Shown here: one piece after another, positions 5,160 to 58,035 of the stretch
Position numbering within the stretch: position 1 is the first letter of the stretch
How the letters are laid out: the number at the start of each line of letters is the position of its first letter
DNA from: Ruminococcus flavefaciens
GTDB taxonomy: Bacteria > Bacillota > Clostridia > Oscillospirales > Ruminococcaceae
Assembly (NCBI GenBank): GCA_015067005.1
Contig: SVNH01000004.1
Location: forward strand, 124,001 to 188,000
DNA length: 64,000 bases
Reading direction: 5' to 3'
Notes under the pieces: generated by a model
Database searches by the model: none
Told to the model about the DNA's origin: nothing
Seen by the model: the letters and a program-made list of their open reading frames with translations, nothing else
Program-made: the position numbers and the translations under genes

Positions 5160-6935
5160 ATGGCAGACAGCATGAAAGGTTTAAAAAGAACACATTACTG
5201 CGGTGAAGTTACCGAAATCGGTGCAGAGGTAGTAGTAGGCGGCTTCGTAGAAAGAGTAAGAAACAAGGGCGGCGTAGTGTTTATCGTCCTCAGAGACAGG
5301 ACCGGCGTTGTACAGCTTCTTTTCAACGATGAAACAGACCGTGAACTGTTTGACAAAGCTGCTTCATGCCGCAGCGAATATATACTTATGGCAAAAGGTC
5401 AGGTACGTGAGCGCGAAAGCAAGAACGATAAACTCAAAACCGGAAACGTTGAAATATTCGTTACCGATCTCAGGATCCTTGCAAAAGCTCAGACAACACC
5501 ATTTGAGATCGTGAATGATACAAAAGCTAACGAAGAGATACGTCTCAAATACCGCTATCTTGACCTCAGAAGAGCCCCTCTCCAGCAGAACATCATCATG
5601 CGTCACCAGATCGCAAAGGTAACGCGCGATTACTTCTACGAGAACGGATTCCTCGAGATCGAAACTCCAATGATGATGAAATCAACTCCGGAAGGCGCAA
5701 GAGACTATCTCATTCCTTCAAGAGTACATCAGGGAAAATTCTATGCACTTCCGCAGTCACCTCAGATCTACAAGCAGCTTCTCATGGTCGCTGGATATGA
5801 TAAGTACATACAGCTTGCACGCTGCTTCCGCGACGAGGATCTTCGTGCTGACCGTCAGCCGGAATTCACACAGATCGACCTTGAAATGTCATTCGTAGAT
5901 TCAGAAGATATTCAGGAATGTGTTGAAGGCTTCATCAAGAGAGTTTTCAAAGAAGTGCTTGATGTTGAGATTCAGACCCCTCTTACAAGACTAACTTTTG
6001 CTGACGCTATGAACCGTTACGGTTCAGACAAGCCTGATACACGTTTCGGATTTGAAATACAGGATATAACTGAAGCCGTTAAGGATATTGATTTCTCAGT
6101 ATTCAAGGGAGCAGTCGAAGAAGGCGGCACTGTACGCGCTATCAATGTCAAGAATGGTGCGGCTACATATACCCGCAAGGAAATCGACAAACTCGTTGAA
6201 CACGCAAAAGGTATAGGTGCAAAGGGACTTGCTTACATCCGCTGGGCAGATGAGCCAAACTGCTCATTCAAGAAGTTCCTTGGTGAAGGCGACCTTGAAA
6301 AGATCTGTGCAGCTGTTGACGCTAAGGAAGGTGACCTTGTACTCATCTGTGCTGACAAGACTAAGACCGTACTCACAACATTAGGTGCGCTCAGACTTAT
6401 CTGTGCTAAGCGTCTTGACGTAATTCCCGAGGACAAGTACAATTTCCTCTGGATCACAGAAATGCCATTCTTCGAGTACGACGAAGAGCATAACACATGG
6501 GTAGCAGCACATCATCCATTCACAATGCCTATGGAAGAGTGTCTTGATTACCTCGATACTTGTCCGGCAAATGTTCGTGCAAAAGCATGGGATCTTGTGC
6601 TTAATGGTACAGAATTATCAAGTGGTTCTATGCGTATAACTGACTATGAGCTTCAGCAGAGGATGTTTGAAGCGCTCGGTATGACTGATGAAGAGATAGA
6701 AGCAAAATTCGGATTCCTTGTTGATGCTTACCGTTACGGTGCGCCACCTCACGGCGGTATGGGTATCGGTCTCGACAGACTTGCTATGATAATGTGCAAG
6801 GCTGAAAGTCTTCGTGACGTAACTGCGTTCCCGAAGGTTCAGAACGCAAGTGAACTTATGTCTGAGTGTCCTTCATTCGTTGACGATGAAAGCCTTAATG
6901 TTCTTGGAATAAGTGTAAACAAAGCCGATGAGTAA
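5160..6935 (+). CDS. aspS: Aspartyl-tRNA synthetase
   Basis: A 591-residue bacterial-type AspRS. In order: an N-terminal OB-fold anticodon-binding domain (VGGFVERVRNKGGVVFIVLRD), the class II core with motif 2 (RCFRDEDLRADRQPEFTQID), the inserted GAD domain about residues 285-420, and motif 3 (GIGLDRLAMIM). The start is the ATG at 5160 with ggggagg nine bases upstream; an in-frame upstream start at 5049 lies inside hisS and is rejected. Whether it charges only Asp or also Asn depends on the presence of GatCAB elsewhere, which cannot be seen. The NUDIX gene overlaps its 3' end by eight bases. Confidence 0.98.
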   Translation: MADSMKGLKRTHYCGEVTEIGAEVVVGGFVERVRNKGGVVFIVLRDRTGVVQLLFNDETDRELFDKAASCRSEYILMAKGQVRERESKNDKLKTGNVEIFVTDLRILAKAQTTPFEIVNDTKANEEIRLKYRYLDLRRAPLQQNIIMRHQIAKVTRDYFYENGFLEIETPMMMKSTPEGARDYLIPSRVHQGKFYALPQSPQIYKQLLMVAGYDKYIQLARCFRDEDLRADRQPEFTQIDLEMSFVDSEDIQECVEGFIKRVFKEVLDVEIQTPLTRLTFADAMNRYGSDKPDTRFGFEIQDITEAVKDIDFSVFKGAVEEGGTVRAINVKNGAATYTRKEIDKLVEHAKGIGAKGLAYIRWADEPNCSFKKFLGEGDLEKICAAVDAKEGDLVLICADKTKTVLTTLGALRLICAKRLDVIPEDKYNFLWITEMPFFEYDEEHNTWVAAHHPFTMPMEECLDYLDTCPANVRAKAWDLVLNGTELSSGSMRITDYELQQRMFEALGMTDEEIEAKFGFLVDAYRYGAPPHGGMGIGLDRLAMIMCKAESLRDVTAFPKVQNASELMSECPSFVDDESLNVLGISVNKADE

Positions 6936-48121: not shown

Positions 48122-50440
48122 ATGATAATCCACATTATCAAAAGAGACGGCAGAAAAGTGCCGTTCAATATCGAAAAAATCGCAAACGCAATCTTCAAAG
48201 CAGCACAAGCCAAAGGCGGAACAGATTTTAACGCCGCTATGGACGTTGCCGTAGAGGTTTGCAGATTATATGAAGAGCAAAACCCCGGTAAAGTGCCGAC
48301 AGTTGAAGAGATTCAGGATCTCGTTGAAAAAACCCTTATCGAAAAAGGTCACGCTAAAACAGCTAAGGCTTACATTCTCTACCGCTATGAGCGTACACGC
48401 TCACGTGAGATGAAGACTAATCTGATGTGCGTACTCAACGAACTGACATTCAGTCCTGCTAAGGACAGCGACATCAAGAGAGAAAATGCCAATATCGACG
48501 GCGATACCGCTATGGGTACCATGCTCAAATACGGCTCGGTATCTGCGAAGGAATATTACGAGATGTACGTTCTCGATCCTAAACACGCAAAAGCACACCG
48601 CGAAGGCGATATTCACATCCACGATCTTGATTTCTATACCCTTACCACTACCTGCTGTCAGATTGATCTGAAGAAGCTCTTTACAAACGGCTTCTCAACC
48701 GGACATGGCTATCTCCGTGAGCCTAATGATATATCAAGCTACTCAGCACTTGCTTGTATTGCAATACAGTCAAATCAAAACGATCAGCACGGCGGACAAA
48801 GTATACCTACTTTTGATTACGCAATGGCTGACGGCGTAAAAAAGACTTATGCTTCAAGATACATTCAGAACGTCGGAAGAGCATTATCACTTATCGCTGA
48901 TGTTGATAATGAAGACGATATAGTAGCTTCTATCAAAAAGGAATTATTTGAAGGTGAAAACCTCAAGCCTGTCCTTGCCAATGATAATGGCTACGAGGAA
49001 AAGGAAAAAGAGATCCTTCTTAAATATACAAGCGAAGACATCGCTGATAAGATACAGGCATTTGCAACTAAGAATGCCGAAAAAGAAGCCGACAGAGCAA
49101 CATATCAGGCTATGGAAGCACTTATCCATAACCTGAATACAATGAACAGCCGTGCAGGCGCTCAGACTCCGTTCAGCTCCATCAATTACGGTACTGACAC
49201 TTCACCTGAAGGAAGAATGGTAATAAAGAACGTTCTCCTCGCTCAGGAGGCTGGTCTCGGCAACGGTGAGACACCGATCTTCCCGATACACATTTTCAAG
49301 ATCAAGGACGGTATCAATTACAATCCTACTGATCCGAACTACGATCTTTTCAAGCTTGCCTGCCGTGTTTCGGCAAAGCGTCTGTTCCCGAACTTCTCTT
49401 TCATTGATGCACCTTATAATCTTCAGTATTACAAGGAGGGCAATCCTGATACTGAGATCGCATACATGGGATGCCGTACAAGAGTTATCGGAAACAAGCA
49501 TGATCCTTCACGCGAAATAGTAACAGGACGCGGTAACCTCAGCTTTACATCTATCAACCTTCCACGTCTTGCTATCAAGGCAGATCATAACGTTGGACTG
49601 TTCTTTGATATGCTCGATGACATGATGGATCTCGCAATAGATCAGCTTATGCACAGATTCAACATCCAATCGCAGAAGCGCGTAAGAAACTTCCCGTTCC
49701 TTATGGGACAGGGTATCTGGATAGATTCGGACAAGCTTTCCGCCGATGATACAGTAGGGGAGATACTCAAGCACGGAACCCTTTCAGTTGGATTTATCGG
49801 ACTTGCTGAGGCCCTCAAGGCACTCATAGGCGCACACCACGGTGAAAGTGACGAAGCACGCGAACTTGGTATCGAGATAATAACCTCAATGAGAAAACGT
49901 CTTGATGAAGAATCAAACAGAACTGGTCTCAACTTCTCACTTCTTGCAACACCAGCAGAAGGTCTCTCAGGACGTTTTGTACGTATGGACGCTAAGAAAT
50001 TCGGTGTTATCGAAGGCGTAACAGACCGTGATTACTATACGAATTCATTCCATGTGCCGGTATACTATCCGATAAGCGCATTCGACAAGATCAAGATAGA
50101 AGCTCCATATCACGAGCTCACAAATGCCGGTCACATCAGTTATATTGAGCTTGACGGCGATCCGCTCGAAAACCTCACAGCATTTGAAAAGATAGTACGC
50201 TGCATGAAGGAATCCGGTATCGGATACGGTGCGATCAATCACCCGGTAGACCGTGATCCATGCTGCGGATACACAGGCATAATAGGCGAGGTTTGTCCGT
50301 ACTGCGGAAGAAGAGAGCACACAAACAATGTTGCTTTCGATCGAATCCGCCGTATAACAGGCTACCTTGTTGGTACGCTTGATCGTTTCAACAACGGCAA
50401 ACGCTCAGAAGAGCACGACAGAGTAAAACATAATGTTTAA
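48122..50440 (+). CDS. nrdD: Anaerobic ribonucleoside-triphosphate reductase
   Basis: A 772-residue class III ribonucleotide reductase. An ATP-cone (about residues 1-95, IIHIIKRDGRKVPFNIEKI) gives allosteric control. The catalytic barrel includes HIHDLDFY and NSRAGAQTPFSSINYG. Near the end, CCGYTGIIGEVCPYCGRRE supplies the four zinc cysteines, and the radical glycine is Gly747 in RITGYLVG. It makes deoxynucleotides without oxygen. ggagg lies upstream and the activase follows ten bases on. Confidence 0.98.
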   Translation: MIIHIIKRDGRKVPFNIEKIANAIFKAAQAKGGTDFNAAMDVAVEVCRLYEEQNPGKVPTVEEIQDLVEKTLIEKGHAKTAKAYILYRYERTRSREMKTNLMCVLNELTFSPAKDSDIKRENANIDGDTAMGTMLKYGSVSAKEYYEMYVLDPKHAKAHREGDIHIHDLDFYTLTTTCCQIDLKKLFTNGFSTGHGYLREPNDISSYSALACIAIQSNQNDQHGGQSIPTFDYAMADGVKKTYASRYIQNVGRALSLIADVDNEDDIVASIKKELFEGENLKPVLANDNGYEEKEKEILLKYTSEDIADKIQAFATKNAEKEADRATYQAMEALIHNLNTMNSRAGAQTPFSSINYGTDTSPEGRMVIKNVLLAQEAGLGNGETPIFPIHIFKIKDGINYNPTDPNYDLFKLACRVSAKRLFPNFSFIDAPYNLQYYKEGNPDTEIAYMGCRTRVIGNKHDPSREIVTGRGNLSFTSINLPRLAIKADHNVGLFFDMLDDMMDLAIDQLMHRFNIQSQKRVRNFPFLMGQGIWIDSDKLSADDTVGEILKHGTLSVGFIGLAEALKALIGAHHGESDEARELGIEIITSMRKRLDEESNRTGLNFSLLATPAEGLSGRFVRMDAKKFGVIEGVTDRDYYTNSFHVPVYYPISAFDKIKIEAPYHELTNAGHISYIELDGDPLENLTAFEKIVRCMKESGIGYGAINHPVDRDPCCGYTGIIGEVCPYCGRREHTNNVAFDRIRRITGYLVGTLDRFNNGKRSEEHDRVKHNV

Positions 50441-50449
50441 GGTGATATA

Positions 50450-50950
50450 ATGGAACTCAGGATAGCCGGAACTGTCAATGATTCGATCGTTGACGGTCCC
50501 GGAATCAGATTTACAATTTTTACACAAGGGTGTCCGCACGACTGCAAAGGATGTCACAACCCGCAGACGCACTCATTTGACGGCGGAACAGTAGTCGATA
50601 CAGACGAACTGCTTGAGAAGATCAAGTCAAATCCGCTTCTTGACGGCGTAACATTCAGCGGCGGAGAACCATTCTGTCAGGCAAAGGCACTCTCAGTGCT
50701 TGGAAAGCAGATCAAAGCACTTGGTTTGAACATCATTACCTATACCGGTTATACATTTGAGCATTTATGGCACGACCGCTGCGACAGCAGTTGGATAGAC
50801 CTGCTTGAAGTAACCGATTACCTGATCGACGGACCTTTTATCCTTGAACAAAAGGACTGGGAAATCAAATTCAGAGGCAGTTCAAACCAGCGCTATATTG
50901 ACTGTCAGGCAAGTATAAAAGAAGGTAAAGTTGTAGAAACTGAACCATAA
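50450..50950 (+). CDS. nrdG: Anaerobic ribonucleotide reductase activating protein
   Basis: A 166-residue radical SAM activase. The cluster motif is CPHDCKGC in FTIFTQGCPHDCKGCHNPQTH, and GGEPF is the SAM-binding GGE motif. It generates the glycyl radical on NrdD. The order nrdD-nrdG and close spacing show one operon under the NrdR box. Confidence 0.97.
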   Translation: MELRIAGTVNDSIVDGPGIRFTIFTQGCPHDCKGCHNPQTHSFDGGTVVDTDELLEKIKSNPLLDGVTFSGGEPFCQAKALSVLGKQIKALGLNIITYTGYTFEHLWHDRCDSSWIDLLEVTDYLIDGPFILEQKDWEIKFRGSSNQRYIDCQASIKEGKVVETEP

Positions 50951-50951
50951 G

Positions 50952-50989
50952 AAAACAGCCGGAAGGGAAGTCTCCCAACCGGCTGTTTT
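50952..50989. terminator. Terminator after nrdG
   Basis: An 11-bp stem aaaacagccgg / ccggctgtttt with an internal ggga/tccc pairing, T-rich on both sides. It would stop nrdDG on the plus strand and may also stop the 6S-like transcript on the minus strand. Confidence 0.9.
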
Positions 50990-51003
50990 AGTTTATAAAA
51001 CGG

Positions 51004-51198
51004 TAAAAAATATCCGCCTTGCCGTCATATAGTGAATGAAACCCGCACTCAGCAGGTGGGTAAACGCCCGAGTGTTTCTCGCTCCCTTCTTCCCGTGGGG
51101 AGGTCTGCAGTCCACAAACGGAGCTAAATTCCCTTTAAAAATGTGTTGGATCAAATGAACTATATTTCACCGAACAAGGCAGATTATTTACTTTTGCT
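51004..51198 (-). ncRNA. 6S-like RNA
   Basis: The predicted transcript is about 195 nt, the usual 6S size. Its ends form a 9-bp closing stem, TCTGCCTTG (51183-51175) with CAAGGCGGA (51021-51013), followed by a T-run (tattttttac) that makes the stem double as terminator. A second pairing, ATATAGT with ACTATAT, lies just inside. Purine-rich internal sequence and two inner hairpins (CACTC/GAGTG and CTCCC/GGGAG) follow. There is no reading frame. A consensus promoter precedes it. 6S RNA in Bacillus lies next to rarA, which is nearby here too. I did not recognise the primary sequence, so the family name is tentative. Confidence 0.5.
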
Positions 51199-51204
51199 AA
51201 GTAT

Positions 51205-51233
51205 ATTATAACACTATTATAAGCAAAAGTCAA
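51205..51233 (-). promoter_or_regulatory. Promoter of the 6S-like RNA
   Basis: On the minus strand: TTGACT (51233-51228), a 17-bp spacer and TATAAT (51210-51205). A transcript would start near 51198. Confidence 0.75.
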
Positions 51234-51272
51234 TACCATATTAAAGATTTTTTGTAATTTTTTGTCAAGAAT

Positions 51273-51572
51273 TTACATTTCTTCACTTTCAAAAGCTTCC
51301 TGCATACGCTGAAGGAAGAATCCTGATACTTCTTCAAACTCATCATCATCATCAATAGAAGCAAGAATCTCCTCACCGTTATCGTCGATAGTTTTAAGTA
51401 TAACAATATCGCAGTCAGAGTTAAGGAAGTCCTCGTCCTCAACAGCTGGAACCATACAGTAATACTGTTCACCGTTGATCTCAGCAGCATCGATCAGTTC
51501 AAAATTCTTTTTGTTGCCCTCATCATCAATGAGTTCAAAAAGCTCGGGGGTGTATTCATTCATTTCTGACAT
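51273..51572 (-). CDS. DUF1292 (YrzB-like) acidic protein
   Basis: A 99-residue, strongly acidic soluble protein. The pattern FELIDDEGNKKNFELIDAAEINGEQYYCMVPA and DIVILKTIDDNGEEILASIDDDDEFEEVSGFFL is that of the DUF1292 family, small Firmicutes proteins of unknown role. The start at 51572 has ggaga six bases upstream; the longer frame runs into the promoter. It has its own promoter, TTGCTT-17-TATAAT (51640-51612). Transcription would run on into the 6S-like gene region. Confidence 0.85.
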   Translation of the reverse strand: MSEMNEYTPELFELIDDEGNKKNFELIDAAEINGEQYYCMVPAVEDEDFLNSDCDIVILKTIDDNGEEILASIDDDDEFEEVSGFFLQRMQEAFESEEM

Positions 51573-51611
51573 AGTTATCTCCAATCCGGCAAAGTGCCAT
51601 GTAATATAAAT

Positions 51612-51640
51612 ATTATACAATGAATATACAAAAAAAGCAA
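51612..51640 (-). promoter_or_regulatory. Promoter of the DUF1292 gene
   Basis: On the minus strand: TTGCTT (51640-51635), a 17-bp spacer and TATAAT (51617-51612). Confidence 0.55.
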
Positions 51641-51751
51641 GTGGAAATGTTAACCGCCCTCTGCTTTATTCAATATGTACTAAACACTGGTACTGTTTTT
51701 GTGCACACCTACGATTTATACCAAATTATGATGCATCTTTATATTTTTCTA

Positions 51752-51780
51752 TTGACATTTCACAAAAGATGTGGTATTAT
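51752..51780 (+). promoter_or_regulatory. Promoter of the large structured RNA
   Basis: TTGACA (51752-51757), a 17-bp spacer and TATTAT (51775-51780). The next gene is on the other strand, so this promoter serves only the RNA. Confidence 0.8.
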
Positions 51781-51892
51781 ATAATCAAGGTAAAGGAAGA
51801 GCCAGAATTGAGGTTCTCCAAGCTGTAATTTACTTGGACTGAGGCACAAACCTCAATGTAAATTATTTAAAGCGGAAGGGGTGGTGAGTCCA

Positions 51893-51943
51893 ATGGAAGA
51901 AACTATCGGACAGCAGCGTGAAGCCGGCGGGCTTGCTGAGTAA
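51893..51943 (+). CDS. Possible 16-residue leader-type peptide inside the large RNA
   Basis: ATG at 51893 opens MEETIGQQREAGGLAE and ends at TAA 51941-51943. A ggaaggggtggtga stretch lies just upstream and could act as ribosome binding site. The same upstream motif at copies 2 and 3 precedes only three-codon frames (MRI, MRN), and copy 4 has lost the ATG. The coding role is doubtful; the motif may be structural. Confidence 0.2.
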   Translation: MEETIGQQREAGGLAE

Positions 51944-52402
51944 TTGAAACGGATCAAGAGGGAATATAAGCTTGTATCAGCTTGTTCCAGCGCGTGAAGT
52001 TACGAATGTTAAGATTTCAATTATAAAGCGGACGTATTGCTGACTGAAAACGGCTTCATGTCTAAACTCAATTTGGATACAGGATTATCTGAAATTTCGA
52101 CAATGAGTCTTTAGATAAATTCAATCGAAAATAAATGGTAAAGGTTGAGTCCAATGAGAATTTAGTACTTTATTCTATGGTATCGGTGGCAGACGTTACA
52201 GTCTGTACGGAATGACCGATAATATTCTAAGTAATAAGGTGAGTCCGATGAGAAATTAATTTGCTTAATTACTTTTTGAAAGAATGTGGTGCTATGAAAA
52301 AAGCAATGTATTCTACAAATATCTGAACCGAAAGGGTGAGTCCAAAGGGTAATTTAGCTAAGTGATGAAAGTCGCTTTACGATTGTAAAATTGAATATGA
52401 TA

Positions 52403-52429
52403 AAAGCCCCGAAGGTCTCTCGGGGCTTT
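52403..52429. terminator. Terminator of the large RNA, shared with rarA
   Basis: A 10-bp stem aaagccccga / tcggggcttt with a 7-base loop, followed by tatttgt on the plus strand and ttatcatatt on the minus strand. Confidence 0.85.
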
Positions 52430-52457
52430 ATATTTGTATAAAACATCATAAAACTAT

Positions 52458-53729
52458 TTATTTGCTTTCAGCTATGATTTTTTTGCGGTATTGCAGAGCA
52501 GCCTGTTCCTGCTTGTTATCTGCAAATTCATAATAGACGTGATCCTTCAAAGCATCAGGAAGGTATTGCTGCTTAACATAGTGATTCGGATAATTATGCG
52601 GATATAGGTAATGCTGTCCTACAATCTTTGCACCTGCTCCGTCGCAATGCTTGTTCTGAAGATGTCGTGGGAAGTCAAGTGCATCGCAACTTCTGAGGTC
52701 GCTCAAAGCAGCGTCAATTGCAGCACAAGCACTGTTAGACTTCGGAGCTGTCGCCATGAGTATTACAGCCTCAGCAATAGGCAAACGTGCTTCCGGCAGT
52801 CCTAACTGCAAAGCAGAATCAACACAAGCCTTAACGATCGGAACAGCCATAGGGTAGGCAAGCCCCACGTCCTCAGAGGCTATGCAGAGCATTCGTCTGC
52901 ACAGCGAAATAATATCACCAGACTCTATCAGCCGTGCTGCGTAATGCAGTGCGGCATTTTCGTCTGAACCTCGAACCGACTTATGAAATGCAGAAAGAAT
53001 ATCGTAGTGCTGATCTCCGTCACGATCATACCGCATATTACTGCGCTGTGCAAGTATTTCAAGCGAACTCTCAGTGATGCTGACAGTATTCTCAGAAGCT
53101 TCGCCGCATAACACAGCCAGTTCCGCTGTATTCATAGCTTTTCTTACATCTCCGCCGCAACTGTAAGCAATTTTCAGGATTATCTCATCGGAAGCATTGA
53201 TCTCATTTCCGCTTTCCTCTGACATGATCCTGAAAGCACGTCTTATTGCCGGAACGAGCTGTTCAGCACTCACTGGCTTAAATTCAAAAACTGTACTTCG
53301 ACTGATAACAGCATTATAAACAGCAAAATACGGATTCTCAGTAGTTGAAGCGATCAGCGTAATATCGCCGTTTTCAATGTATTCAAGCAAACTCTGCTGC
53401 TGCTTTTTGTTAAGATACTGTATCTCGTCAAGATAAAGCAGAATGCCGTTTTCACTGCCAAAAGTACCAATATCCGCAACAACATCCTTGATGTCAGAGA
53501 GAGAGGCGTTCGTACCGTTGAGCTTATAAAGTGACATTCCGCAATTATCAGCTATTATACGGGCAACTGTTGTCTTGCCGACTCCGGAAGGTCCGTAAAA
53601 AATCATATTAGGCACGGTACCGCTTTCAATTATCTTTCGCAAAGGTTTTCCCTCGGCAAGGATATGCTCCTGACCAACAACATCGGCAAGAGATTTCGGA
53701 CGTATTTTATCAGCTAACGGTGCAGACAT
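52458..53729 (-). CDS. rarA: Replication-associated recombination protein RarA (MgsA-type AAA+ ATPase)
   Basis: A 423-residue clamp-loader-like ATPase. Walker A is YGPSGVGKTT, Walker B is LLYLDEIQYLNKKQQQ and the sensor region is IASTTENPYF. The C-terminal part (DDIISLCRRMLCIASEDVGLAYP-like, here SGDIISLCRRMLCIASEDVGLAYP) is diagnostic of the RarA/WRNIP1 family. It acts at stalled replication forks. The start at 53729 follows aaggaga; the 13-residue longer frame is rejected. It lies 22 bases after the YhfC-type gene on the same strand. Confidence 0.96.
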   Translation of the reverse strand: MSAPLADKIRPKSLADVVGQEHILAEGKPLRKIIESGTVPNMIFYGPSGVGKTTVARIIADNCGMSLYKLNGTNASLSDIKDVVADIGTFGSENGILLYLDEIQYLNKKQQQSLLEYIENGDITLIASTTENPYFAVYNAVISRSTVFEFKPVSAEQLVPAIRRAFRIMSEESGNEINASDEIILKIAYSCGGDVRKAMNTAELAVLCGEASENTVSITESSLEILAQRSNMRYDRDGDQHYDILSAFHKSVRGSDENAALHYAARLIESGDIISLCRRMLCIASEDVGLAYPMAVPIVKACVDSALQLGLPEARLPIAEAVILMATAPKSNSACAAIDAALSDLRSCDALDFPRHLQNKHCDGAGAKIVGQHYLYPHNYPNHYVKQQYLPDALKDHVYYEFADNKQEQAALQYRKKIIAESK

Positions 53730-53751
53730 AACAAATCTCCTTAAAATAGTA

Positions 53752-54402
53752 TCAGCATTCTTCTTCAAACGGGCTTTTCAGTGATTCCCAGCATCGGTAT
53801 CCGGCATAGCATAAGCCCACTGCGATCAGGATTCGCAGTAAAATAGCAACAGGCTCAATAAAAATGCCGACACAAGCATTAGAAACAGCGTGTGTAAGTA
53901 TAGCTGCGGACAAAGTTACAAAAGATTTTTGTTTATGTATGCCATAAAAAATTATGACAGCCACAGCAGCATCTGAAATTACTTCTGTGGACACAGAGAA
54001 TAACTGAAATAACAATATATCAGGTGCTGCATTACCAGTACCTATCAATCCAAGACAAGTAATGCCTATACCTAATTCCTCATAAGCTCCGTGACCTATG
54101 GAATAAGTAACAGCATCCTTCCGGTTATCATATGAAGTCAGAAAATAGCCCATCATCAGGTACTTGGTGCTCTCTTCAAGAATTCCGAAAAGCAGCCCTT
54201 GCTGTATGTAAAAAAGGATAGGAGAGCTATGATCGAATCCCGAACGTATAGCGTTGCCAGCGATAAAAATCGGAAAGCATACTAAAAACGCCGCAATAGC
54301 AGTGAAGGGCTTCGCGCCCGTTTTTTTATACCAGAATATCAGCAGAATGGTCGGGGTGCACAGATTCAGCAATCCGGCAAGCAAACAGCTCAGATCTTTC
54401 AT
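53752..54402 (-). CDS. YhfC-family intramembrane protease
   Basis: A 216-residue membrane protein with about seven hydrophobic segments. The pattern EESTKYLMM, then HGAYEELG, then LTHAVSNA supplies the Glu and His residues of the glutamic-type intramembrane proteases related to PrsW and CAAX proteases (YhfC family). Substrates are unknown. It overlaps the DUF3795 gene by four bases (ATGA), so the two are translationally coupled. Confidence 0.82.
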   Translation of the reverse strand: MKDLSCLLAGLLNLCTPTILLIFWYKKTGAKPFTAIAAFLVCFPIFIAGNAIRSGFDHSSPILFYIQQGLLFGILEESTKYLMMGYFLTSYDNRKDAVTYSIGHGAYEELGIGITCLGLIGTGNAAPDILLFQLFSVSTEVISDAAVAVIIFYGIHKQKSFVTLSAAILTHAVSNACVGIFIEPVAILLRILIAVGLCYAGYRCWESLKSPFEEEC

Positions 54403-54797
54403 AGCTTACCTGTCTTTATAAAAGCTATCAAGGTCTCAATATCGTCAAAGCTGTCATAATCTCCGATAATACCTTCTCTATGATAGACGATACCGGCTTT
54501 TTCGTTGCTTTCGAGATGATCTAGCAGATCGTCCAGACCGTATCTTCTTGCATACTCTGCAAAAGCTCGCGGCTTTATCTTATCCGCATACAGACCTTTT
54601 TTGCAGTTTAATGGCTCACATTCATAGCAGCCGTTTAAATCCTTTTCAATGACGCATTTTCTGTTTTCGCACCATTCTGCATCCTTGCACCACGAAAGTT
54701 CAAGAAATCCGTCGCGTTTACAGCCTTTACATTCAACATTTTCAGAGCATAAGCAGCAAGCCAGTCCACATCTTGCTATTCCGAGTTCGCGTTTCAT
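54399..54797 (-). CDS. DUF3795 cysteine-rich protein
   Basis: A 132-residue protein with 13 cysteines, mostly in the first half: ARCGLACCLCSENVECKGC, WCKDAEWCENRKC and CYECEPLNC. The C-terminal half is charged and helical. This is the DUF3795 family, which is thought to bind metal or iron-sulfur clusters; its role is unknown. It is the first gene of a unit with the YhfC-type protease and perhaps rarA. Confidence 0.85.
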   Translation of the reverse strand: MKRELGIARCGLACCLCSENVECKGCKRDGFLELSWCKDAEWCENRKCVIEKDLNGCYECEPLNCKKGLYADKIKPRAFAEYARRYGLDDLLDHLESNEKAGIVYHREGIIGDYDSFDDIETLIAFIKTGKL

Positions 54798-54823
54798 AGC
54801 ACACCCCCATAACTATAAAAATC

Positions 54824-54850
54824 AAGGGACGGACAGAACGTCCGTCCCTT
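54824..54850 (-). terminator. Terminator after glyA
   Basis: An 11-bp stem aagggacggac / gtccgtccctt with a 5-base loop, followed by gattttta on the minus strand. Confidence 0.9.
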
Positions 54851-54860
54851 TCGGTAATTC

Positions 54861-56117
54861 TTACTTATAAAGCGGGAACTTCTCGCAGATAGCATTTACG
54901 CCTGCACGGATCTCATCAGCCTTGTTCTCGAAATCAGTAGCGCAAAGGTAAATGTACTCAGCGATCTTTTCCATTTCCTCAACACCGAGACCTCTTGTAG
55001 TAACAGCCGGAGTACCGATACGGATACCGCTTGTTACAAACGGCTTTTCAGGATCATTGTGGATAGCGTTCTTGTTTACAGTGATATACACCTCATCAAG
55101 TCTGTGCTCAAGCTCCTTACCGGTGATGTTGAACGGACGGAGATCAACGAGCATGAGGTGATTATCAGTACCGCCTGAAACGAGGTTGAAGCCTCTCTTG
55201 AGAAGGCCTTCAGAAAGAGCCTTTGCATTAGCAACGATCCTCTGCTGATAGTCCTTGAACTCCGGCTTGAGAGCCTCACCGAAGCAAACAGCCTTAGCAG
55301 CGATAGTGTGCATAAGCGGACCGCCCTGAGTACCAGGGAAAATAGCGGAATTGATCTTCTTAGCAAGAGCCTCGTCATTTGTGAGGATAAGACCGCCTCT
55401 TGGACCGCGAAGAGTCTTATGTGTAGTAGTAGTGGTGATGTCAGCATAAGGAACAGGGGACTCGTGACAGCCAGCTGCAACGAGACCTGCAATATGAGCC
55501 ATATCTACCATAAGAAGAGCACCGACAGAATCTGCGATCTGGCGAAGTCTCTTGAAATCAATTGCTCTTGGATAAGCACTTGCACCTGCAACGATAAGCT
55601 TTGGCTTATTTTCGTCAGCAAGCTTCTGAACTGTATCATAGTTAATCATTTCAGTTTCATCGTCAAGACCGTATGAAACGAAATTGAAGTATTTACCTGA
55701 AAGATTTACAGGTGAACCATGTGTAAGGTGACCGCCGTCAGCAAGGCTCATACCGAGAACAGTATCACCGGGCTGGAGTACAGCAAAGTAAGCAGCTGTA
55801 TTAGCCTGTGCACCAGAATGCGGCTGAACATTAGCAAATTTAGCACCGAAAAGTTTGCAGGCTCTTTCGATAGCAATAGCTTCTACTTCGTCAACGCACT
55901 GGCATCCGCCATAGTAACGCTTTCCGGGATAACCTTCAGCGTATTTGTTAGTAAGTACACTTCCCATAGCAGCCATAACAGCAGGGGAAACGATATTTTC
56001 GCTTGCAATGAGTTCAAGATTTCTCTGCTGACGAGCGAGTTCCTTATCCATAGCTTCGCCGACAGCCGGATCATAACCCTTGACAAAGCCGATTGAATCC
56101 ATAAGATCGTTATACAT
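54861..56117 (-). CDS. glyA: Serine hydroxymethyltransferase
   Basis: A 418-residue PLP enzyme converting serine and tetrahydrofolate to glycine and methylene-tetrahydrofolate. Conserved blocks: [48 protein letters not shown] and [15 protein letters not shown], whose lysine holds PLP. The start at 56117 follows aaggag; the frame extends three residues further but without a better signal. No glycine riboswitch is visible in the short leader. Confidence 0.98.
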
Positions 56118-56170
56118 TTTTAGCACTCCTTTTGATTTTAATGTCTTATATGCACGAGCATTACTATATT

Positions 56171-56198
56171 ATTATACCTCAAACCGGAAATAATTTCA
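56171..56198 (-). promoter_or_regulatory. Promoter of glyA
   Basis: On the minus strand: TTGAAA (56198-56193), a 16-bp spacer and TATAAT (56176-56171). Confidence 0.6.
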
Positions 56199-56223
56199 AT
56201 AGGGAATCGTAAAAAACACAAAA

Positions 56224-57081
56224 TTATTTTACTTTTACTATTTTTCTCCAGTCTGGAGCATTCTGGCGTGAAGCGATCATAGCACAGAATTTCAGAATAC
56301 AAGTCGCATCATAAGTAGTAATTCTTCTGTTTCCGTCAACATCGCCATACATAAACAGATCGTCACTGACATCAATATTTATGTTAGGATTCGAGAGATT
56401 AGAGCATACCTTAAGCATATATGTAGCATCAGTTACATCATATCTATTGTTATGTGTTACATCTCCAAACTTCGGAACGTAATATATCTTATATGTAAAC
56501 AGTTCCTGATCATCTCTTGTGTAAACAGTAACATCAGCTGATTTAGTGCCATAGCTGTCAATATCCTCAGCGCCTGCAAAAGCTGTTTCAAGGGAATCCG
56601 GCTTGCAGTAGCAGCTTTCTCCGATATTTTCAACAGTGCTTTCTGTTTTGTATTCGCCGTTTTCATCACGTTCAGCGATCTGATTTTCTTTGACTATTTC
56701 CACATTAAGCCCTTCAAGAGTAAGCGGATCCTCCATATACACATAACGTCTTACAATAGGAGCCTCCTTAATAGAAAGAGTGTAAGTCTGACTCAGTGCC
56801 TGAACAGTTATATCGCTTGTAATAGTATCAGGAGTTTCACTCCATTTATAAAACGAACGCTCAGTATAATTATCAATATGTTTATCAAGTGAAGAGGTGT
56901 CCACTTTGGAATAATTGATCTTCTTTCCGTCTTCAACTTTCAATCTTGTCATTACATTTCCGTCAAAATCAAGGAAAGTAATGGTATGAGTTACAGTGTC
57001 CTGAGCATTGGCATAGAACGGCATAGATGCCGAAGCCATTATCAGTGACATGATCGCAGCAGCTATCTTATTTTTTTTCAT
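56224..57081 (-). CDS. Secreted protein with Ig-like region and C-terminal dockerin-like repeats
   Basis: A 285-residue protein. The N-terminus MKKNKIAAAIMSLIMASASMP, with ANA before the likely cut site, is a signal peptide. Next comes a repeat like Listeria-Bacteroides Flg_new modules (HTITFLDFDGN...), then a bacterial Ig-like segment (PLTLEGLNVEIV ... SADVTVYTRDDQELFTYKIYYV). The C-terminus has two dockerin-type calcium loops: GDVTHNNRYDVTDATYMLKV and GDVDGNRRITTYDATCILKF. The second keeps D1, D3, N5 and D12; the first is degenerate. There is no catalytic domain, so it is not a typical cellulosomal enzyme. Strong aaagggagg before the ATG. Confidence 0.82.
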   Translation of the reverse strand: MKKNKIAAAIMSLIMASASMPFYANAQDTVTHTITFLDFDGNVMTRLKVEDGKKINYSKVDTSSLDKHIDNYTERSFYKWSETPDTITSDITVQALSQTYTLSIKEAPIVRRYVYMEDPLTLEGLNVEIVKENQIAERDENGEYKTESTVENIGESCYCKPDSLETAFAGAEDIDSYGTKSADVTVYTRDDQELFTYKIYYVPKFGDVTHNNRYDVTDATYMLKVCSNLSNPNINIDVSDDLFMYGDVDGNRRITTYDATCILKFCAMIASRQNAPDWRKIVKVK

Positions 57082-57370
57082 AATATCCTCCCTTTGTCCT
57101 TCTGAGGTAAAACAATCTGCAATAATCCGAAAGTGACTGGCAAGAATCAACAAGATCAAGGTAATTCATTCGATAACACACGAAATTTGCAGAAATGATC
57201 TTCTCTGTATCTGATGAATAGGTATAAACCGCATATAGTATAACTTCATCATCCTCAATTTCATCCAGTAGACCGACCGCTTCCTGTTTATAGTCCTCGA
57301 AAAAATCTTCAATGACTGAAGCAGGATAAAAGCCGCAATACGAAGAATCAATATAAAGATCAATGTCCAT
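57068..57370 (-). CDS. Small acidic cytosolic protein of unknown function
   Basis: A 100-residue protein without signal or membrane segment, rich in Asp, Glu and Tyr. The ATG at 57370 has ggagaaaaca upstream. It overlaps the dockerin gene by 14 bases and the membrane-protein gene by 11, so the three genes form a coupled set. I recognise no family. The overlap and ribosome binding site support its reality. Confidence 0.65.
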   Translation of the reverse strand: MDIDLYIDSSYCGFYPASVIEDFFEDYKQEAVGLLDEIEDDEVILYAVYTYSSDTEKIISANFVCYRMNYLDLVDSCQSLSDYCRLFYLRRTKGGYYEKK

Positions 57371-57572
57371 TGTTTTCTCCTTCAGGCATTACAGCATCCT
57401 CATGTGCTGATTGTTCCGGGTCAGAATTTCTGGAAACGCTATTATGCCTACGCAAGCGATACGTAAGAATACCAGATACGACAAAAGTCACAGTAAACAG
57501 AGCGAGTATTACAACAACACTCAACGCCTTGCTTCCGCCTGATAACATAATTGTAAGCATCCGCATATCCAC
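57360..57572 (-). CDS. Small single-span membrane protein of unknown function
   Basis: A 70-residue protein. The likely start is a GTG at 57572, nine bases after aaggggt; ATG codons at 57566 and 57560 are alternatives. One membrane helix, ALSVVVILALFTVTFVVSGIL, is followed by a basic stop-transfer YRLRRHN and an acidic hydrophilic tail. It begins the three-gene set that ends with the dockerin protein. Confidence 0.6.
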   Translation of the reverse strand: MDMRMLTIMLSGGSKALSVVVILALFTVTFVVSGILTYRLRRHNSVSRNSDPEQSAHEDAVMPEGENNGH

Positions 57573-57594
57573 GAAATCAACCCCTTTTCATTTG

Positions 57595-57623
57595 ATTATA
57601 ACACATTTAGAAATGAATGTCCA
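57595..57623 (-). promoter_or_regulatory. Promoter of the dockerin operon
   Basis: On the minus strand: TGGACA (57623-57618), a 17-bp spacer and TATAAT (57600-57595). Confidence 0.6.
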
Positions 57624-57667
57624 TAGCTTTGAAAAAATAATTTTGACCTGCAAAATAATTAAAGTCC

Positions 57668-57696
57668 TTGACAAATAAGAAATCATGTGTTATAAT
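57668..57696 (+). promoter_or_regulatory. Promoter of tRNA-Leu
   Basis: TTGACA (57668-57673), a 17-bp spacer and TATAAT (57691-57696), a perfect consensus. Confidence 0.9.
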
Positions 57697-57709
57697 GTAT
57701 AAGTTGATT

Positions 57710-57796
57710 GCCGCTGTGGTGGAATTGGCAGACACAAGGGACTTAAAATCCCTCGGTAGCAATACCGTACCGGTTCAAGTCCGGTCAGCGGCACCA
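57710..57796 (+). tRNA. tRNA-Leu (anticodon TAA), CCA encoded
   Basis: Acceptor arms gccgctg (57710-57716) and cagcggc (57786-57792) pair fully, with discriminator A and encoded CCA at 57794-57796. The anticodon stem ggga / tccc frames the loop with TAA. A long variable arm, as in class II tRNAs, and the T-arm ggTTCAAgtcc follow. It reads UUA and UUG codons. Confidence 0.97.
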
Positions 57797-57818
57797 GCGG
57801 GGAGCCCCCGCGGGCAGT

Positions 57819-57853
57819 TTCGCGCTTTACTTCTTGTGGAGCGCGAATTTTTT
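57819..57853 (+). terminator. Terminator of tRNA-Leu
   Basis: The stem ttcgcgct / agcgcgaa (57819-57826 with 57840-57847) is followed by six T. Confidence 0.8.
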
Positions 57854-58035
57854 CCCGCGCATGAAAGTCATCTATTATGTATAGATAACACACCGGCGAG
57901 CTGCCGGGCGCTTCCACGAAGTCGCTCGCAAGCTCGCTTACTTTTTACATAAGTGTCTGTCTGCTTTCGCATACGGCACTTTCATCAGTTTTGTACATCT
58001 TACACTGCGCCCCCTTCCACGGGGGCGCTTATTTT
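57854..58035 (+). other. GC-rich non-coding stretch after tRNA-Leu, with its own terminator
   Basis: No credible reading frame. The 57890-57940 part is clearly richer in G+C than its surroundings (cggcgagctgccgggcgc and similar). A terminator hairpin gcgccccc / gggggcgc (58007-58014 with 58021-58028) with ttatttta follows, although no gene on this strand precedes it apart from the tRNA. It may be the 3' part of a longer tRNA transcript or a leftover of an element. Confidence 0.4.

Follow-up and report, generated by a model that had tools for sequence, protein, structure and literature searches.

ROOL and GOLLD form RNA-only multimeric cages, 6S RNA binds RNA polymerase, SgrS/SgrT and RNAIII are dual-function small RNAs, and lambda bar is a bacterial minigene. 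To our knowledge, minigenes are known to occur singly or in pairs, within leaders or operons. The excerpted account of the large RNAs describes ROOL and GOLLD in phages and prophages near tRNA islands, and gives the 659 nt ROOL env-120 as originating from cow rumen (PMC12286853). Bacterial mini-ORF cases in a further excerpted source are axe-txe, ycbK, and LEE4 (PMC8708949), and VcdRP is described, again in excerpt, as a dual-function small RNA (PMC8672173).

Here we analyzed an RNA encoded in a 64,000-nucleotide window of Ruminococcus flavefaciens DNA (the window being the whole stretch analyzed, to which all positions refer). It resembles ROOL, GOLLD, and OLE, as the excerpted source portrays them, in its size, its complex covarying fold, and its poorly understood function (PMC12286853). 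Unlike ROOL and GOLLD, this RNA is chromosomal, lies beside 6S RNA, and gave 0 matches among viral contigs for two exact patterns, which diverged relatives would escape. Unlike all three, it carries conserved tiny ORFs and has no Rfam match. Bacterial minigenes, which act via translation or ribosome occupancy, provide a second point of comparison. We propose a likeness to them based on the predicted succession of a Shine-Dalgarno (SD) sequence, an AUG, one to six codons, and a stop. The minigenes of the excerpted source are single or paired and lie within or ahead of larger genes (PMC8708949), whereas the window RNA has several in series and no larger gene. Like a dual-function small RNA it would combine a regulatory RNA with a small ORF, but its ORFs are many, most contain only 1-4 codons, and their peptides are not conserved between genera. 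In the logic proposed below it would also resemble 6S RNA, its adjacent and divergently encoded neighbor, as a mimic of initiation sites that captures the corresponding machinery, although the 6S model (RF00013) does not match it. Within the open-licence PMC literature, we found no earlier description of a stand-alone serial-minigene RNA or of a divergent 6S partner in this gut and rumen group. Our analysis suggests an unrecognised kind of RNA that would work by ribosome engagement.

The transcribed unit is predicted to span 51787..52431 on the plus strand (~645 nt in this species), with its start site placed from the promoter. This promoter (51752..51780, plus strand) is of the sigma-70 type, reading TTGACA-N17-TATTAT with a TG before the -10 element. 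It matches 11 of 12 consensus positions and is kept in nearly all of the relatives' alignment rows listed. An intrinsic terminator follows at 52403..52429 (plus strand). Terminator-like hairpins were present in 54 of 61 relatives' loci at 454 to 1395 nt past the promoter, with one or two (L041, L042) possibly belonging to something other than the unit. Unit length in relatives ranged from ~0.55 to 1.4 kb. The window's ORF list contains no frame of at least 40 codons between promoter and terminator, and the RNA is single-copy in its own genome. A first-pass annotation of this DNA had pointed to the promoter, the terminator, and the lack of a gene-sized frame, and all of these were confirmed. 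Together, the sequences strongly support 51752-52429 as a stand-alone transcription unit.

Searching the window against Rfam 15 with cmscan returned no match in the unit at the gathering threshold, and only chance-level matches at E values up to 10. Relatives' loci (15 from the genus and 6 from other genera) likewise gave sub-threshold scores only, with none at gathering level. The RNA therefore lies outside Rfam, as the first-pass annotation had claimed. Its alternative proposal of a divergent ROOL, GOLLD, or OLE gained nothing from these searches, which found no such link for the window or for the 21 relatives' loci. ARAGORN detected no tmRNA at 50000-58000, and one tRNA-Leu lies ~5 kb from the RNA. 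The same annotation had correctly excluded a leader of rarA, which is convergent. In several of the loci L003-L016, the place of rarA as next downstream gene is taken by a co-directional ORF of ~470 codons.

Within the unit (all positions on the plus strand), alignments of relatives revealed a structured core at 51915..52062 with five covarying helices: 51920-51926/52051-52057, 51927-51929/52033-52035, 51935-51937/52027-52029, 51940-51950/52014-52024, and 51961-51971/51980-51988 (helices 1 to 5). This core is the basis of covariance model R2. It is preceded by a 5′ hairpin, AAUUUAC...GUAAAUU (51827..51864), whose inner GAGG/CCUC stem covaries (GC/AU/UA/CG). Downstream of the core, alignments and pattern matches placed the most conserved sequence block, ATACAGGATTATCTGAAATTTCGACAATGAGTCTTTAGATAA, together with a hairpin at 52077..52118. 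A 3′ hairpin of 7 bp, AAGUGAU-GAAA-GUCGCUU (52360..52377), is captured by model R1, which represents the 3′ domain. Its GAAA tetraloop is nearly universal, and 3 of its 7 pairs show double-sided changes.

Covariation was counted for the core on 43 of 58 extracted sequences, from which near-duplicates and five very divergent rows had been omitted by hand. The alignment of the 3′ domain retained 39 of 48 sequences after omission of near-duplicates. Across the 34 core pairs, 94.3% of 1462 cells were paired. Changes on both sides were found in at least one sequence for 21 of the 34 pairs, compared with 7-14 for slid controls, and 120 cells were double-sided, compared with a shuffle mean of 26.9 (0 of 500 as high) and 11-34 for slides; as the structure was predicted from the same alignment, these counts favor it over its slid versions. 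Predicted folding of the unit was also somewhat better than for 20 shuffled versions (z -2.8). A structured RNA had been proposed at first pass, and the compensatory changes expected of one are indeed present in the homologues. We consider an RNA with a covarying fold strongly supported within the genus by these alignments.

The 5′ hairpin contains an AUG with an immediate stop (AUGUAA, 51856-51861). Among 51 loci matched by a context pattern, the stop directly follows in 50 (45 TAA, 4 TGA, and 1 TAG); in L029, which falls outside that pattern, TGG follows instead. We do not claim this as a genuine start-stop, since no SD precedes it and the helix alone may explain it. In R. flavefaciens XPD3002 (L021; also L058), the 3′ hairpin occurs four times as GATGAAAGTCGCTT, at unit positions 604, 787, 971, and 1338. 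The ~1.4 kb XPD3002 RNA is thus one in which the 3′ domain is duplicated as well as the mini-ORF modules.

The first-pass annotation had noted four copies of a GGUGAGUCC motif and interpreted them as structural modules of the 3′ half. The copies themselves are as described: three exact GGTGAGTCC (at 51883, 52238, and 52335) and one GGTTGAGTCC with an extra T (at 52143), with intervals of 94 and 97 nt between the last three. The interpretation was not supported. One copy is located in the 5′ half, the last has no start codon, and the copies look like SD/start-codon sites of tiny ORFs. Comparison with relatives gave the shared consensus AAAGGUGA(G/U)UCC(A/G)AUG, in which GGUGAGUCC forms part of a translation start: an SD-like GGUGA, then (G/U)UCC, usually one purine, and AUG. 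With its codon, the element can be written GGUGANUCC-AUG. Two copies open predicted mini-ORFs in the window (plus strand), namely GGTTGAGTCCA-ATG at 52143..52165, with the frame M-R-I-stop (52154-52165), and GGTGAGTCCG-ATG at 52238..52259, with M-R-N-stop (52248-52259). The last copy, GGGTGAGTCCAAAGGG (52334..52349, plus strand), was placed by motif search and alignments. The motif is not confined to this RNA: its own genome has one further AGGNGANTCCRATG site besides the one here.

Frames this short recur among relatives, as MRI, MRN, MRK, MRS, MR, ME, or MQ before a stop. From 59 loci of the same genus, 123 start sites were collected (122 ATG, 1 GTG), and 114 of these opened frames of at most 7 codons. 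A stop fell within 9 codons in 104 of 107 distinct contexts, compared with a mean of 59.8 and a maximum of 75 when the downstream 60 nt were shuffled (2000 rounds). As the genomes and sequences are related rather than independent, such tests overstate significance. The result persisted for contexts lacking AGA as second codon, with 47 of 48 closing within 9 codons (shuffle mean 28.2, maximum 40). In the +2 control frame, 32 of 123 closed within 7 codons; the +1 frame (93 of 123 within 7 codons) is uninformative as a control because ATGA yields TGA at once. Predicted pairing with the anti-SD sequence, for which we used what we take to be the standard sequence, averaged -8.1 kcal/mol at 122 module AUGs and -4.8 kcal/mol at 810 further AUGs in these RNAs, a set that includes the ORF1 starts described below.

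Module spacing differs among species (52, 70, about 95, or about 185 nt), while the start codon and a near in-frame stop are kept. R. flavefaciens FD-1, for example, carries AAAGGTGAGTCCCATGAGATAA (M-R-stop) four times at 70-nt intervals, and L075 has sites 52-53 nt apart. This retention of start and stop despite variable spacing and number makes the term non-coding doubtful. The sequence thus provides what defines a minigene, with an SD, a start codon, and an in-frame stop within a few codons. We conclude that the motif copies are very probably translation-initiation sites under selection.

The copy nearest the 5′ end differs in what it initiates. Its GAGUCC element is accompanied by a very strong predicted SD (51874..51892, plus strand; -17.2 kcal/mol) and precedes ORF1 (51893..51943, plus strand), a frame of 16 codons encoding MEETIGQQREAGGLAE that shares sequence with helices 1-3 (their 5′ strands) and with the first pairs of helix 4. 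ORF1 starts accounted for each of the 40 strongest among the 810 non-module AUGs (-14.0 to -18.4 kcal/mol). Of 60 loci with a recognisable start context for this ORF, 47 have a 16-codon frame and 13 one of 17-21 codons. Some loci break it, among them L005 and L041, where a shift takes it out of frame. A third frame, ORF3 (52294..52326, plus strand), encodes the 10-codon MKKAMYSTNI. Its counterparts in relatives, such as MKMRYRLEF and MKDFRYMFKY, have 9-10 codons in 32 of 34 loci found by a context pattern, a few of which are doubtful. Codon-position counts for ORF3 showed a small third-position excess, a weak coding signal. Peptide conservation was likewise weak apart from the ORF1 N-terminus.

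BLASTN matched the RNA in 45 of 59 other genomes of the same genus, and model R2 in 94 of 125 genus genomes, including 63 of 68 of good quality. R2 found one copy per genome throughout the genus except in G509, where contig C117 carries two equal-score cores 3.8 kb apart (1625-1772 and 5467-5614), either a tandem duplication or an assembly error. Model R1 was run on eight genomes, comprising G674 and seven genus genomes without an R2 match; four of these seven (G466, G482, G047, and G057) contained a strong 3′ domain. The core is present in G028, yet R1 missed this genome. A 25-nt pattern from the most conserved block matched 32 named contigs labelled Ruminococcus, Oscillospiraceae, Clostridia, or Clostridiales, including those of R. 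flavefaciens FD-1 and XPD3002.

The gene arrangement provided a means to look beyond the genus. Divergent from the RNA, 6S RNA is encoded at 51007..51188 on the minus strand (RF00013, 62.9 bits). Between the two, also on the minus strand, lies a gene (51273..51572) for a protein that we take to be DUF1292-like. Among the genus loci scanned, 8 of 15 include 6S RNA, some being too short to show it. Across the family, 6S RNA was present in 98 of 119 genomes searched. We used 80 of these 98 loci, leaving aside the window's own genome, one genome of the same genus, and the 16 weakest matches. On the strand divergent from 6S RNA, the motif with a start codon occurred at 75 sites in 39 of the 80 loci, compared with 6 on the strand opposite it and 6 and 4 for the two strands of the other flank. 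A relaxed pattern at 300-1900 nt gave 80 sites in 43 loci, compared with 4, 1, and 2 in controls. In the 41 loci without the strict motif (37 without the relaxed one), the RNA may be absent or may have diverged. In 75 of the 80 loci, whether or not the motif was present, a DUF1292-like gene lay at most 600 nt from 6S RNA and on its strand.

The motif also re-emerged when only TCC before AUG was fixed. The resulting consensus, A-G-G-U-G-A-(G/U)-UCC-(A/G), appeared on the divergent strand but was absent from the opposite strand. TCC preceded 107 of 2042 divergent-strand AUGs compared with 22 of 1886, and GANTCC preceded 64 compared with 3. Frame sizes followed the Ruminococcus pattern. First sites in other genera opened frames of 10-28 codons in 24 of 34 cases (shuffle mean 13.2, maximum 23), and later sites frames of at most 4 codons in 20 of 28 (shuffle mean 7.3, maximum 15). 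These 6S loci are, at the level of sequence, a second data set for the frame-size rule. Their ORF1 counterparts carried D or E within residues 2-6 in 26 of 29 cases, compared with 184 of 648 control frames, and an acidic residue at positions 7-11 in 3 of 29. By inspection, the peptides had almost no common sequence beyond this acidic start, which can be read as selection on the peptide or as selection for GA-rich, well-initiated starts.

Model searches outside the genus gave a sparser picture. R2 found nothing convincing among 247 family or 394 order genomes under strict filters; all scans of more than 40 genomes used such filters and lose weak matches. A marginal R2 match in G674 (E 0.034) was taken as chance. 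Run on 245 order genomes, R1 gave weak but consistent matches in three genomes of another genus of the same family, and also matched weakly two genomes of one genus in another family, plus one more. Both genus groups have ORF1-like frames after the motif, MDSEKTARYHAGFSIVR and MDNESIQFRSAVCRACTSEQ, each ending in a stop. The same-family group further shows mini-frames (MY, MR, and MT before a stop), a final motif copy that lacks AUG, and what looks by eye like a terminator. In this group, 6S RNA lies divergent beside the RNA in L121 and L122, with a below-threshold match at the locus end in L124. In another family, 6S RNA was divergent from the motif in L130, L132, and L135, among 20 pattern loci scanned.

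The exact pattern AGGTGAGTCCVATG was present in 39 of 295 order genomes, spanning 25 of 148 genera, compared with one site for a reversed control pattern. Some of its sites head longer, ordinary-looking gene frames (e.g. L131 and L143-L145). In a set of 291 genomes, 7 pattern sites fell beyond the order, compared with 3 reversed-pattern sites, offering no support for spread to that distance. Sequence comparison strongly supports a locus divergent from 6S RNA in several genera. Direct pairing between motif and 6S RNA was considered and rejected, with GGACT, which is complementary to the motif, present in 13 of 81 6S sequences compared with 14.7 after shuffling. GGAATC (11 compared with 3.5 shuffled, maximum 9) and GGA-N-TC (28 compared with 14.3, maximum 23) were in excess, which we give no weight because motif loci were not enriched for them (2 and 12 of 34).

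Our main reading, to which we assign a probability of roughly one half, is that of a folded stand-alone RNA that would engage ribosomes through a strong 5′ ORF and then through start sites with tiny frames. In this model, a strongly initiated ORF of ~11-27 codons near the 5′ end would be followed by one or several sites opening frames of one to a few codons, and ribosomes would begin translation at each site only to terminate almost immediately. Such immediate termination would yield little protein while repeatedly capturing initiating ribosomes. By analogy, the RNA could tentatively be seen as titrating or sensing translation initiation capacity, a translational counterpart of 6S RNA. Since ORF1 passes across the 5′ strands of the core helices, translating this frame and keeping the core folded are expected to be mutually exclusive. 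This would give an RNA with two states, in which a ribosome translating ORF1 opens the core and fold and translation alternate.

An unlikely but more explicit version is a 6S RNA of translation, a regulator belonging to this bacterial order and built as a string of mimics of mRNA initiation regions capturing 30S/70S complexes that are ended after one to three codons. The start element, AGGAGGUGA-N-UCC, would be approximately a full-length complement, with one bulge, of the 16S rRNA 3′ end, presumably GGAUCACCUCC. As this RNA is encoded back to back with 6S RNA, which captures RNA polymerase, both machineries could be tuned from one locus. We infer that a titrator or sensor fits the facts and the 6S neighborhood best, with shielding from nucleases as a serious rival.

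Under that rival, mini-ORFs would park ribosomes against RNases or Rho, and function would reside in the folded core through protein or target binding. The core and 3′ hairpin are well conserved and covary within the genus, and the number of sites gives the impression of rising with RNA length (FD-1, XPD3002). A precedent exists in the excerpted literature, where a six-codon minigene of EHEC LEE4 with a strong SD protects its mRNA from RNase E (PMC8708949). Nevertheless, an SD alone would suffice for protection, leaving AUG and stop codons unneeded. The start sites also seem to outlast the fold over long distances, as they are present outside the genus where R2, under strict filters, was unconvincing. 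We regard this explanation as doubtful. Clearly less likely is a dual-function RNA in which ORF1, with its acidic N-terminus, and ORF3 (MK..RY..) encode functional micropeptides and the minimal ORFs are relics or spacers. The constant lengths of ORF1 and ORF3 in the genus and the acidic residues of ORF1 in other genera agree with it, but beyond that acidic start ORF1 sequence is hardly common between genera, GAA/GAG-rich starts could reflect initiation strength, and the commonest frames, at 1-3 codons, could not encode a functional peptide.

Short ORFs followed by a terminator also look attenuator-like, and translation of such ORFs could control read-through into a downstream gene. The next ORF of at least 90 codons is co-directional in 17 of 58 genus loci with a downstream call, but it is opposite in the other 41, so that a co-directional gene is not the rule. 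In addition, rarA, found in 34 of 61 loci, lies on the opposite strand in 33, and downstream gene content varies while the RNA stays. A leader or attenuator is accordingly very unlikely. We give slightly less credence still to a purely structural large RNA of the ROOL/GOLLD kind, in which GGUGAGUCC-RAUG is a small hairpin or kink-turn and the frames arise by chance. The element's GG and CC could pair, some third-position changes (GGUACAGACC, GGUGUAUACC) are compatible with this, and we presume a kink-turn resemblance to the U4 sequence CCAAUGAG. However, the GG(U/C)GA(G/U)UCC of other genera places U-U or C-U at the third pair, and the motif as a GG..CC mini-hairpin or kink-turn was rejected because those genera retain AUG and stop but not the matched pairs. 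In two data sets, moreover, the start codons and the distances to the stop are far from chance, and by inspection a weak GGUGA is accompanied by an upstream GGAGG or GAGG.

If ribosome engagement is indeed the role of this RNA, there would be bacterial RNAs whose product is that engagement itself, in place of a protein or of a role that is antisense or purely structural. The conserved 6S neighborhood suggests that a group of gut and rumen bacteria controls its capacities for transcription and translation as a pair, and the 6S-adjacent locus is an addressable place for testing it. The absence of a gene-sized frame would then not equate to non-coding, as arrays of two- to four-codon frames evade ordinary gene finding.

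Several individual loci showed unusual arrangements. L140, from another family of the order, has four motif sites in 240 nt (1274-1512), two with ORF1-like frames (MAIEVQTEQIGQSGLTTLR and MVVEEQLWNNRTRSGLVA, each ending in a stop), and no 6S match within 3 kb. G146, from another family (f17), has four AGGTGAGTCCVATG sites, on contigs C2, C10, C36, and C42, compared with at most 3 in other genomes, and possibly encodes several such RNAs. In L207 (G519, contig C3), two equal-score 6S copies lie ~3 kb apart, each beside a DUF1292-like gene.
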